From Lytechinus variegatus (lineage: Eukaryota; Echinodermata; Echinoidea; Temnopleuroida; Toxopneustidae): a DNA stretch of 64,000 bases. Below the pieces are notes generated by a model, which was not told where the DNA came from, did not search any database, and was given only the letters and a program-made list of their open reading frames with translations. Each line of letters starts with the position of its first letter. The stretch's first letter is position 1. A program made the position numbers and the translations under genes. Positions 15,606-44,700 of this stretch are shown one piece after another. The stretch is taken from NCBI RefSeq assembly GCF_018143015.1, contig NC_054740.1, positions 72,623,856 to 72,687,855 on the forward strand, in the 5' to 3' direction.

Positions 15606-17612
15606 TAATCATAAATGGTATAGTAAATGCCGTAAAAATAAAATCATAGATTTTAAAAGGAGCATAGCTCTCAAAAATGAAAGGTAAAGTCACACTCTTC
15701 GTCAGTGCCCATGATGTGACAAAAAAAGAGAATTCAAAATCCGTTTCTGAAACAGTCGTGAAAAACACGTCTGTTCATGGGCATACGGATTGTGAAACTC
15801 ACCTTTCAAAGAAATCAATGCGCTGAAGATGGAGGAAGCGCACTGTAAAAAACGCATCTAAAGACGCGTTGCCATGACTGCAAGATGACAATGGCGAATC
15901 TCCGGCTCCAAAACAGGAAAATCTGAAAAGGGCCTCACCGCCAACAGTCGAAGTTTAGCAGTAAAAAGTACCTGAGTAAAATAGAAATAGTCTGCTTCGG
16001 CATATGGAATAAAATAATCATAAATGGTATAGTAAATGCCGTAAAAATAAAATCATAGATTTTAAAAGGAGCATAGCTCTCAAAAATGAAAGGTAAAGTC
16101 ACACTCTTCGTCAGTGCCCATGATGTGACAAAAAAAGAGAATTCAAAATCCGTTTCTGAAACAGTCGTGAAAAACACGTCTGTTCATGGGCATACGGATT
16201 GTGAAACTCACCTTTCAAAGAAATCAATGCGCTGAAGATGGAGGAAGCGCACTGTAAAAAAACGCATCTAAAGACGCGTTGCCATGACTGCAAGATGACA
16301 ATGGCGAATCTCCGGCTCCAAAACAGGAAAATCTGAAAAGGGCCTCACCGCCAACAGTCGAAGTTTAGCAGTAAAAAGTACCTGAGTAAAATAGAAATAG
16401 TCTGCTTCGGCATATGGAATAAAATAATCATAAATGGTATAGTAAATGCCGTAAAAATAAAATCATAGATTTTAAAAGGAGCATAGCTCTCAAAAATGAA
16501 AGGTAAAGTCACACTCTTCGTCAGTGCCCATGATGTGACAAAAAAAGAGAATTCAAAATCCGTTTCTGAAACAGTCGTGAAAAACACGTCTGTTCATGGG
16601 CATACGGATTGTGAAACTCACCTTTCAAAGAAATCAATGCGCTGAAGATTTTCTGTCACATCATGGGCACTGACGAAGAGTGTGACTTTACCTTTCATTT
16701 TTGAGAGCTATGCTCCTTTTAAAATCTATGATTTTATTTTTACGGCATTTACTATACCATTTATGATTATTTTATTCCATATGCCGAAGCAGACTATTTC
16801 TATTTTACTCAGGTACTTTTTACTGCTAAACTTCGACTGTTGGCGGTGAGGCCCTTTTCAGATTTTCCTGTTTTGGAGCCGGAGATTCGCCATTGTCATC
16901 TTGCAGTCATGGCAACGCGTCTTTAGATGCGTTTTTTACAGTGCGCTTCCTCCATCTTCAGCGCATTGATTTCTTTGAAAGGTGAGTTTCACAATCCGTA
17001 TGCCCATGAACAGACGTGTTTTTCACGACTGTTTCAGAAACGGATTTTGAATTCTCTTTTTTTGTCACATCATGGGCACTGACGAAGAGTGTGACTTTAC
17101 CTTTCATTTTTGAGAGCTATGCTCCTTTTAAAATCTATGATTTTATTTTTACGGCATTTACTATACCATTTATGATTATTTTATTCCATATGCCGAAGCA
17201 GACTATTTCTATTTTACTCAGGTACTTTTTACTGCTAAACTTCGACTGTTGGCGGTGAGGCCCTTTTCAGATTTTCCTGTTTTGGAGCCGGAGATTCGCC
17301 ATTGTCATCTTGCAGTCATGGCAACGCGTCTTTAGATGCGTTTTTACAGTGCGCTTCCTCCATCTTCAGCGCATTGATTTCTTTGAAAGGTGAGTTTCAC
17401 AATCCGTATGCCCATGAACAGACGTGTTTTTCACGACTGTTTCAGAAACGGATTTTGAATTCTCTTTTTTGTCACATCATGGGCACTGACGAAGAGTGTG
17501 ACTTTACCTTTCATTTTTGAGAGCTATGCTCCTTTTAAAATCTATGATTTTATTTTTACGGCATTTACTATACCATTTATGATTATTTTATTCCATATGA
17601 AGCAGACTATTT
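15606..17612. repeat. Palindromic array of about 410-bp units, nearly identical copies
   Basis: Units start with TAATCATAAATGGTATAG at 15606, 16015 and 16425, a period of 409-410 bp. Near 16648-16652 the orientation flips, and about two and a third reverse-complement units follow to 17612. One unit boundary in this half is at about 17172. Copies differ by only a base or two, such as one A in a poly(A) run, so the amplification is recent or homogenised. Each direct unit holds a 49-codon frame starting MKGKVTLFVS. Its complement holds a frame of about 80 codons, an AAAG/GTGAGT donor-like site and a CAAGATGACAATGGCGAA motif. I recognise no gene. (TA)n lies immediately outside both ends. Confidence 0.9.
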
Positions 17613-17614
17613 CT

Positions 17615-41700: not shown

Positions 41701-44700
41701 ATGATAACTAGACATCCAACAAATGACATTTCTCTTATGATCATCTTTACTCATTGTCATTAATCAAACAATAGATTACTGCCATGAAAAATGTGCAAGG
41801 AAGTTTGTTTATTACTGGATGCCCTGTTTATTGCTGAAAGCAAAGTGATTAAAAGACACACGAGATAATCCATGAGGCAGATCGTGTTATTTTGTTATCT
41901 TTAACTCGCCTGCTTTGGCCCATGATATTTTGTTTTTATCGAGTACGTTATCTCCTTCATTCTGTATATTTATATATTAATTTTATATATATATATATAT
42001 ATATATATATATATATATATATATATATATATATATATATATATATATATATATATATGTATATATATATATATTGTAAAGAAATGGATGAAGAGAACAA
42101 TGGTAGGCGTAGCTTAAATCAAGGTTCCCCAGAGCTATCTACCCTTTGGAAAAATTGGTAATGCCGAAAAAATGTCTCTGCCGGGAATCGAACCCGGGCC
42201 CCCAGCTTTGAACGCCGGTGCCTTAACCACTAGACCACAGAGACGGTTAGTAGCTAGGGCGAGCCCGATCCGATTGACCGTCAGATAGACAGATTTTCGA
42301 CACTATACCAATTATATATTCCTTTGTCGGGTGAAGGTGAGTTTTGAACAATGACAAGCCGCCATGCCTCAGCTGGATCAAAGCTATTGCTTCGATACAG
42401 TACACATATGGGAGAAGAAATACAAATGTGTAAAGTTATACATGTACAACAGCTTTTTTGGCAACCATTTCTTTACAATATTTAAATAAACAAGAGTTGC
42501 CAAAAAAGCTGTTGTACATGTATAACTTTACACATTTGTATTTCTTCTCCCATATGTGTACTGTATCGAAGCAATAGCTTTGATCCAGCTGAGGCATGGC
42601 GGCTTGTCATTGTTCAAAACTCACCTTCACCCGACAAAGGAATATATAATTGGTATAGTGTCGAAAATCTGTCTATCTGACGGTCAATCGGATCGGGCTC
42701 GCCCTAGCTACTAACCGTCTCTGTGGTCTAGTGGTTAAGGCATCGGCGTTCAAAGCTGGGGGCCCGGGTTCGATTCCCGGCAGAGACATTTTTTCGGCAT
42801 TACCAATTTTTCCAAAGGGTAGATAGCTCTGGGGAACCTTGATTTAAGCTACGCCTACCATTGTTCTCTTCATCCATTTCTTTACAATATTTAAATAAAA
42901 AAGAGTTGCCAAAAAAGCTGTTGTACATGTATAACTTTACACATTTGTATTTCTTCTCCCATATGTGTACTGTATCGAAGCAATAGCTTTGATCCAGCTG
43001 AGGCATGGCGGCTTGTCATTGTTCAAAACTCACCTTCACCCGACAAAGGAATATATAATTGGTATAGTGTCGAAAATCTGTCTATCTGACGGTCAATCGG
43101 ATCGGGCTCGCCCTAGCTACTAACCGTCTCTGTGGTCTAGTGGTTAAGGCACCGGCGTTCAAAGCTGGGGGCCCGGGTTCGATTCCCGGCAGAGACATTT
43201 TTTCGGCATTACCAATTTTTCCAAAGGGTAGATAGCTCTGGGGAACCTTGATTTAAGCTACGCCTACCATTGTTCTCTTCATCCATTTCTTTACAATATT
43301 TGAATAAAAGAGTTGCCAAAAGCTGTTGTACATGTATAACTTTACACACATATATATATATATATATATATAAAGTATGACCCAGCAAGGGATCATCCCC
43401 CCAGGTCTAAGGACCTGTCTACGCCACTGGTTGGGGCAAAAAGGACATCCTCTATAAAACATTTTATTTTGTTTTATCATCCCCGCAAATTCGACCCTAA
43501 ACACGTTATTTTCCTAGCTAAATAGATACCCTTATTTTCATTATTTTTGTGGTTTTGACACCCTTATAACGTTACGTACGTAACGTGTCCTATCATGAAG
43601 AGGACATCCTTTTTACGTGTTTTTTTGGTCGCGCATGGTATCCACTCATCAATGTAAGTGCCCCCCGGGATTTAAACATCGAAACGTATAATTACAAAGT
43701 GTTACTTGAACAAAAAAATCTACATTTTCCGGTTACACTTCGTAATTCCGAAGCTTCGTAATTCCGAAGGTTCTTTATTCCGAAGGTTCGTAATTCCGAA
43801 ACACGTAAATTGCCTATACCTCGATGTTCGTTAATCCGAAAACGAAAAAGGGTTCGTTAATCCGAACATTTGTGGCGTAATTCCGACGGTTCGTTATTCC
43901 GAAGGTTCGATAATCCGAAAACGGAATAAGGTTCGTTGTTCCGAAGGTTCGTTAATCCGAAAACGAAATAAGGTTCGTTGTTCCGAAGGTTCGTTAATCC
44001 GAAAACGAAATAAGGTTCGTTGATCCGAAAACGAAATAAGGTTCGTTTTTCCGAAGGTTCGTTAATCCGAAAACGAAATAAGGTTCGTTGATCCGAAAAC
44101 GAAATAAGGTTCGTTTTTCCGAAGGTTCGTTAATCCGAAAACGAAATAAGGTTCGTTAATCCGAAAACAAAATAAGGTTCGTTAATCCGAAAACGAAATA
44201 AGGTTCGTTAATCCGAAAACAAAATAAGGTTCGTTAATCCGAAAAATTAAAACCGGGAAAGCAGAGGCAAGGGGAGGGGGGCGGGGGACACTGTTGCCGT
44301 TCAATTATTATGAGGATGGGAAGGCAAGGGCGGCCGAACGAATTTTCGTTGGGGGGTAAAGCCAAAAATGAAACTCATACGTCAAAATGGGCACTTTGGT
44401 GATATTTTCACCTTAAGATTATCATCTGCTTGAAGTCATTGTGTGTTTGATAGTGATTAAGTAGAGAAAAACTTTTTTGAAGTGACTTCTTATTATGGCA
44501 AAATGTATATTTAGGATTTATTTTTTCGGGAGAGAGTATAATGAGCGAGCGGCTTGGTAAAACAAATTCAAAGGTGAAGTTGTAAAACGTTTTTGGGGTC
44601 AATTATTCTTAAAATGGCATTATTGCGAGGTGTTGCGAGCGTGAATCACAAGCTAAAACTTTAGGGTATTTCAATAAAAAATGAAAATAAGTTTTTAAAA

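Follow-up and report, generated by a model that had tools for sequence, protein, structure and literature searches.

Arrays of short non-coding units in the Lytechinus variegatus genome appear to insert in the manner of Penelope-like elements

Introduction

The way in which Penelope-like elements (PLEs) insert, and the origin of their tandem and inverted copies, is an unsolved problem. The purified protein of the Anolis PLE cleaves and extends both strands of DNA, prefers AT-rich targets and begins copying at two adjacent internal sites of its RNA, in agreement with where genomic copies end (the ‘tail’); the later steps of insertion were left for validation (PMC11167929). In the part of the Adineta study drawn on here, PLEs are described as tandem copies with an inverted partner and an optional 31-bp tail on one inverted repeat, unrelated host sequence lying between such repeats can be moved in trans, one copy has a microhomology junction, and the authors favour self-priming as the source of the inversion because the joints are palindromic (PMC3846280). 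Metazoan retrozymes, in the sections of their description used here, are short non-coding tandem units of 150–450 bp, arranged as dimers up to 62-mers, with GC under 45–50% and co-occurring with PLEs; neither ‘inverted’ nor ‘microsatellite’ appears in the main text (PMC7229834). This work concerns three arrays of units of about 400 bp in 64,000 nt of the sea urchin Lytechinus variegatus (assembly GCF_018143015.1, contig NC_054740.1, forward strand, 72,623,856–72,687,855), hereafter the window, and their relatives elsewhere in the same genome.

The original prediction, made from the letters of the window, was that these three loci follow one plan and owe it to a common process. We measured 75 such arrays, and we conclude that each probably arose when a non-autonomous retroelement of about 400 bp inserted once with the help of PLE-type machinery. 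The arrays have a consistent polarity, two preferred outer end points, one tail per two-armed insertion as a rule, variable inner joints and TA flanks, and the genome carries PLE genes. Many short, gene-less insertions in one genome thus form a record of the reaction.

Results

The units were located in the window by blastn and the TA tracts by Tandem Repeats Finder (TRF), except for the tract to the right of array 3, which was read from the sequence. The predicted layout is borne out, with head-to-tail units of 410, 399 and about 409 bp in arrays 1 to 3, a single flip in each, and (TA)n on both sides (Table 1). By blastn, array 1 (15605–17614) runs forward through unit positions 1–410, 1–410 and 1–226 and then in reverse through 122–1, 410–1, 410–1 and 410–380, which makes 2.55 forward and 2.3 reverse copies and a 28-bp extension. 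Array 2 (26166–27509) runs forward through 3–399, 1–399 and 1–279 and in reverse through 211–1 and 399–347 (2.7 forward and 0.5 reverse copies with a 53-bp extension), and array 3 (42074–43358) consists of one forward unit, two reverse units and a reverse piece of 399–341.

Unit 3 is about 91% identical to unit 2, and the two make one family. Unit 1 is unrelated to it, as had been proposed: the comparison of units 1 and 2 gives no blastn match at E 1e-3, and the best Smith-Waterman score (42) is at shuffle level, being equalled by 68 of 200 shuffles. A motif common to the ends of both units was also considered and rejected, 79% of 1000 shuffles scoring as high. Unit GC is 0.39–0.45, and no stop-to-stop frame of at least 110 aa lies inside the three arrays. 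The near-identity of copies within arrays, also predicted, holds as well, with substitutions of 0.48% within arrays against 1.76% between them for unit 1 (11 sources, most within-array pairs coming from the 22-copy array L012), and of 1.33% against 2.82% for unit 2 (11 sources, the diverged copies of L052 and L091 raising the within-array figure). This likeness fits a circular and a linear multi-unit template alike.

We then sampled both families in the assembly to which the window belongs, 33 contigs totalling 869.6 Mb. For the array-1 query the best 40 of 518 first-look candidates were scored, and for the unit-2 query the best 40 of 1880, the first-look counts being unverified. Besides the three window arrays, 39 unit-1 and 27 unit-2 loci were read, the latter being 8 distinct loci among the 30 matches of one listing and 19 others; the remaining 22 of those 30 matches lay in the window, in the same 8 loci or in one large array of contig 8. 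With L061 dropped as the interior of a larger contig-8 array, the set measured comprises 42 unit-1 and 33 unit-2 arrays, with copies, flanks and flip points tabulated, and it is biased towards window-like copies because the best-scoring part of both families was sampled. A 29-base pattern spanning the unit-2 end, with up to 3 mismatches, has 601 matches in the genome, against none for the reversed control. Three pairs of loci (L014/L017, L015/L016 and L027/L028) each hold one insertion twice on one contig, 1–3 Mb apart and with near-identical flanks, which may reflect either segmental duplication or haplotypes duplicated in the assembly.

We call ‘sense’ the strand that runs outward, which in unit 2 is the one bearing a tRNA-like gene. 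This strand faces outward at all but two of the 42 inversion joints; the 40 outward joints occur in 39 arrays, and the two inward ones in L023 and L042. The outer sense-3′ ends (n = 113) lie at the unit boundary in 53 cases, a step further in 48 and elsewhere in 12, so that 101 fall at two points. Among the 53 ends of unit 1, 26 are at position 409–410, 18 at 25–40 (15 of these at 31–37) and 9 elsewhere; among the 60 of unit 2, 27 are at 390–399, 30 at 38–59 (10 at 51 and 17 at 59) and 3 elsewhere. Unit-2 alignments reaching 59 have probably strayed into the adjoining TA tract, given the CACACA that the unit carries up to position 51. The two end points of a unit are thus spaced by about 31–37 bp in unit 1 and about 51 bp in unit 2, and we refer to the nearer as untailed and to the further as tailed, with class limits chosen after the ends were inspected. 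The 5′ ends of arrays, in contrast to these two points, are scattered across the unit (positions 1–390), and array length ranges from 0.2 to 21.8 units.

The two kinds of end are combined in a regular manner. In 29 of the 30 two-armed arrays with both ends classifiable, one end is tailed and the other untailed (5/5 for unit 1 and 24/25 for unit 2), whilst about 15 would be expected if ends were independent (P ~3e-8); the exception, L086, is tailed on both sides, and none is untailed on both. Two outward 3′ ends are borne by 27 of the 33 unit-2 arrays. L009, a two-armed array with an unclassified end, can be combined with L010, 4 kb away, into a single untailed/tailed array that an insert has split; it was excluded from this count. 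The insert itself, of about 2.6 kb, has inverted-repeat ends of about 22 bp and is accompanied by a 9-bp duplication of unit positions 384–392. A systematically longer arm on one side was considered and rejected, the untailed arm being the longer in 20/29 (p 0.23). Separately, the copies of L012 differ at 8 columns, some of them in runs of neighbouring copies, a pattern that may be a record of array growth. The alternating unit variants of L014 and L017 could have served as proof of a multi-unit template, an argument weakened because the flanks of both mark these loci as duplicates of a single insertion.

A TA run (10 bp or longer) is found no more than 40 bp from 84 of the 101 classifiable 3′ ends and from 21 of 37 array 5′ ends, compared with 27 of 5000 places picked at random in the window; unclassified 3′ ends are mostly away from TA (a run near 2 of the 11 with full flank). 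Insertion into TA repeats is therefore upheld, and the situation that the original prediction had named as speaking against it, most copies lying outside TA, is not that of this sample. Likewise, one set of rules holds across the 75 arrays of both families, and the recurrence of the plan at many places of the genome argues that it does not arise by chance, which leaves the predicted common process, rather than three accidents, standing. At L019 a unit-2 copy forms the right flank of a unit-1 array, and both families thus appear to have used the same TA tract.

The inner joints follow no such preference. At the 40 outward joints the arms stop at differing unit positions, and 6 joints lie within 20 bp of a palindrome where about 4 are expected, which disfavours fold-back by template switching, template-switch amplification having been offered as one possible process. 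Microhomology of at least 3 bp is found at 12 of the 40 (4.7% by chance) and of at least 2 bp at 19 (14.75% by chance), whilst 15 have extra or mismatched bases, and the overlap at the joint of L086 is 28 bp. We read mostly non-palindromic joints with an excess of microhomology as end joining of two independently started complementary DNAs (cDNAs), rather than as fold-back.

The genome also carries PLE genes. One PLE frame matches RVT_1 (E 6.3e-12) and GIY-YIG (E 3.8e-8), with the endonuclease downstream of the reverse transcriptase (RT). Its endonuclease part has at least 150 matches in the genome (150 scored of 550 candidates), with open frames of up to 1010 aa, and the Pfam GIY-YIG model gives 6 matches (150 scored of 288 candidates). 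A match of 12 residues of the frame to Hep_core_N (19.3 bits, cut-off 25) is sub-threshold and was taken as chance.

Unit 2 and unit 3 carry a tRNA-like gene with the anticodon TCA at all seven window places where they span its site (Rfam 57.6–64.9 bits; ARAGORN), whereas neither Rfam nor ARAGORN finds a tRNA in unit 1. ARAGORN labels the gene selenocysteine from the anticodon, although by its length of 72 nt we take it to be of ordinary tRNA shape and not of the long selenocysteine type. Among 78 units from 30 sources, the anticodon loop GTTCAAA is present in 74 and T5 or T6 directly 3′ of the tRNA in all 78, and substitutions are 0.77% in the tRNA compared to 1.63% and 1.31% on its two sides. 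Eight units with 77–94% identity to the reference outside the tRNA keep 66–71 of its 72 positions. The tRNA is conserved more strongly than the sequence around it, although some other 25-bp stretches equal it in this, and a UGA-reading anticodon on a tRNA cargo is a further oddity; we make no claim that this predicted gene is charged or used in translation.

Ribozymes were sought within the arrays. A permissive Rfam scan (up to E 10) of arrays 1 and 2 gives none, array 3 being scanned at the gathering threshold only, and a hammerhead core-motif scan of both strands of the window gives six matches, none of them inside the arrays. Sub-threshold Rfam matches in the arrays were taken as chance, and one to MIR9481 at 27134–27281 (42.6 bits, cut-off 130) as a hairpin artefact because it sits on an inversion joint. 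More stable folds than those of shuffled sequences are predicted for sense unit RNAs (circular z −5.6, −5.7 and −6.0), and antisense ones have circular z of −4.6, −2.6 and −3.0, whilst 2 of 15 random window pieces reached about −3.7. Since double changes are few (6/507 and 6/1038 cells), broken pairs are no rarer than in slid controls and RNAalifold retains 1 of 86 pairs with a double change, we make no claim for a selected fold.

Table 1. Array parts, flanking TA tracts and tRNA-like genes of the window (window positions; dot, no strand)
Feature	Position	Strand	Evidence and remarks
(TA)n tract (target), left of array 1	15528..15607	.	TRF
Array 1, left arm	15605..16649	sense −	blastn; 2.55 unit-1 copies (410 bp); outer end untailed (sense 410)
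Array 1, right arm	16649..17586	sense +	2.3 unit-1 copies; joint ~sense 185/294, 4 extra bases
Array 1, tail, right outer end	17587..17614	+	sense positions 1–31
(TA)n tract, right side of array 1	17616..17654	.	TRF
(TA)n tract, left side of array 2	26118..26165	.	TRF
Array 2, left arm	26166..27239	−	2.7 unit-2 copies (399 bp); outer end untailed (sense 397)
tRNA-like gene (TCA), array 2 copy 1	26263..26333	−	Rfam 58.1 bits, ARAGORN
tRNA-like gene (TCA), array 2 copy 2	26661..26732	−	Rfam, ARAGORN
tRNA-like gene (TCA), array 2 copy 3	27060..27131	−	Rfam, ARAGORN
Array 2, right arm	27246..27456	+	part of unit; joint sense 121/189, 6 extra bases
tRNA-like gene (TCA), array 2 inverted copy	27286..27357	+	Rfam 64.9 bits, ARAGORN
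Array 2, tail	27457..27509	+	sense 1–53
(TA)n tract, right side of array 2	27509..27534	.	TRF
(TA)n tract, left side of array 3	41965..42074	.	TRF
Array 3, left arm	42074..42479	−	one unit-3 copy; outer end untailed (sense 399)
tRNA-like gene (TCA), array 3	42173..42244	−	Rfam, ARAGORN
Array 3, right arm	42480..43296	+	two unit-3 copies
tRNA-like gene (TCA), array 3	42717..42788	+	Rfam, ARAGORN
tRNA-like gene (TCA), array 3	43126..43197	+	Rfam, ARAGORN
Array 3, tail	43297..43349	+	blastn alignment continues to 43358, into TA tract
TA tract, right of array 3	from ~43350	.	sequence

Repeats adjoin array 3 on both sides and array 2 on the right. The one beside array 2 (27540–27940; best 40 of 2372 first-look candidates scored) has a start that may resemble a mariner-type end at TA, and the left neighbour of array 3 (41560–41960) is 96–98% identical at 39 other places among the 40 matches listed. 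Further along the window, two arrays of a 16/26/42-bp unit (43738–44245 and 47409–47794) stand in opposite orientation, 3.2–3.9 kb apart, as if they were tandem-repeat ends of a mobile element, and a part of the interior between them (45620–46017) is 97–98% identical to sequence flanking L014 and L017, two unit-1 arrays of contig 4. Of two open frames beyond, that at 50861–51964 is a rhodopsin-family receptor (7tm_1, E 1.4e-26), and that at 53195–55087 has immunoglobulin-domain matches just below the curated cut-offs.

Discussion

If the arrays are indeed PLE-type insertions, their anatomy could be produced as follows. An enzyme combining RT and endonuclease would bind a multi-unit (or circular) RNA of the element and break both strands of a (TA)n tract, and each broken end would prime copying of that RNA. 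One end would start at the upstream site, which is the end of the unit, and leave no tail, whilst the other would start further downstream, by about 31–37 nt in unit 1 or 51 nt in unit 2, and leave one. Each cDNA would cover part of a unit or several units, and the two would meet head to head and be joined, often via a few bases of microhomology. The outcome would be tandem units with one inversion, TA at both edges, and a tail on one end but not on the other. We infer the RNA intermediate, the PLE as source of the enzyme, the double-strand break and the order of events. The arrays suggest that both arms start from the 3′ region of the RNA, that each start site is used once per insertion (in 29 of the 30 that could be classified), and that end joining, not fold-back, unites the arms; all of this can be put to a precise test with a purified PLE enzyme.

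Several observations weigh against such interpretation. The tail of unit 2, at about 51 bp, is longer than the 30–40 bp of PLE tails, which that of unit 1 (mostly 31–37 bp) matches. One-armed arrays number 35 (19 untailed, 14 tailed and 2 unclassified), and 9 of the 39 two-armed arrays have at least one unclassified end. Target-site duplications are indistinguishable, because the targets are (TA)n. No hammerhead or other known ribozyme is matched by Rfam in the window at the gathering threshold. The units show nothing convincing against 3.3 kb of one PLE family (best E 0.058) or against a second, represented by 0.4 kb (best E 0.018, in AT-rich sequence), a comparison that took in two of at least three families, a further one having an endonuclease about 55% identical. 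Runs of five or six T are a stop for RNA polymerase III, so their place directly after the tRNA of unit 2 fits poorly with transcription of several units from the tRNA promoter. Furthermore, the Anolis enzyme showed no difference in start sites between top and bottom strands (PMC11167929), and the rule of one end of each kind is therefore not predicted by that work.

The most serious competitor shares everything but the template with the explanation preferred here. The units might be retrozyme-like, copied from unit-length circular RNAs by rolling-circle reverse transcription with enzymes borrowed from PLEs, the monomer circle being made without a hammerhead. Unit size, tandem arrays, low GC and co-occurrence with PLEs all agree with retrozymes as described in the consulted sections of PMC7229834, and the 22 copies of L012, the good folding of the circular unit RNAs and the greater likeness of units within than between arrays point the same way. 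On balance we find this possible but doubtful, as the type I hammerhead that defines retrozymes was not found, the fold is without covariation support, and units inside L012, L014, L017 and array 2 differ at several sites, so that they would not come from a single monomer circle unless later mutation or exchange intervened. A bolder version, that the units form a new retrozyme class without ribozymes (small RNAs, multimeric or circular, one of which uses its embedded UCA-anticodon tRNA for processing or recognition) and that the one-tail rule shows a PLE enzyme dimer whose subunits always use different start sites, possibly on one shared RNA, is a speculation that we hold unlikely.

The tRNA of unit 2, followed by T5–T6, could also suggest a tRNA-derived short interspersed element (SINE) moved by a long interspersed element with frequent twin priming, a process that in L1 also gives head-to-head copies. 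Tandem arrays with two alternative, outward 3′ ends are, however, not the usual SINE plan, and here there are tandem arrays, two preferred 3′ ends and two outward 3′ ends in most unit-2 arrays. Since unit 1, without a tRNA, shows the same anatomy, such an origin seems quite improbable. Tandem units with copies alike within an array would equally be expected of satellite or extrachromosomal-circle DNA reinserted at random and inverted by later rearrangement or fold-back replication, but preferred outer end points, one polarity at nearly all joints, the one-tail rule and joints that are mostly not palindromic make this very improbable. That false inversions were introduced in TA-rich repeats during assembly is scarcely credible either: the three duplicated pairs do indicate that the assembly may hold some haplotype duplications, yet none of them contributes to the 30 arrays counted for the one-tail rule, and the 40 joints share one polarity whilst breaking at different points of the unit, an unlikely pattern for misassembly.

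We thus return to the insertion of short retroelements by PLE-type machinery, and regard the manner of insertion as well supported. What the units descend from is another matter. They would be non-autonomous elements, and we call them PLE-like inserters rather than proven members, because neither a long open reading frame (ORF), nor a hammerhead, nor sequence convincingly shared with the PLE DNA compared was found; on sequence grounds, a derivation from PLEs is not claimed. The titles and abstract openings searched, mostly outside subscription journals and outside any repeat database, hold no description of ribozyme-less, tRNA-bearing PLE-like arrays, and the families may already be named.

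Compared to known systems, the units share with metazoan non-LTR retrozymes their short, non-coding tandem form, low GC and presence alongside PLEs, whereas retrozymes have a type I hammerhead in each unit and none was found in units 1–3. Unit 2 resembles tRNA-derived SINEs in its complete tRNA-like gene, yet this lies in mid-unit, the arrays are tandem and inverted, and unit 1 has no tRNA; moreover, the 5′ ends of single-armed unit-2 arrays (38, 81, 158, 158, 221 and 302, a small sample of n = 6) are not clustered at the tRNA start, position 229. The Naiad/Chlamys PLEs of Craig et al. 2021 reportedly have complex tandem and inverted insertions, a microsatellite bias and no hammerhead; their endonuclease is said to be N-terminal, unlike that of the PLE frame of this genome, where it follows the RT. 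Some PLE clades are without a hammerhead.

The closest likeness is to the Penelope/Poseidon-type PLEs (Anolis PAc and the Adineta vaga Pen families). The units differ from these in their length of about 400 bp, in having no long ORF with RT and GIY-YIG and no recognised hammerhead, in being two unrelated sequences of which one carries a tRNA, and in joints that are mostly not palindromic, whereas those of Adineta are; for the units studied here, the joints thus speak against the self-priming favoured for Adineta. Nevertheless, both have tandem and partial-tandem copies with a head-to-head inverted partner, an optional tail on one inverted repeat, and AT-rich targets. The original prediction knew of no named element class with exactly this design; PLEs, with their tandem and inverted copies, optional 31-bp tail and AT-rich targets, do fit it (PMC11167929 and the portion of PMC3846280 drawn on here), and the array plan itself is not new but matches the described anatomy of PLEs.

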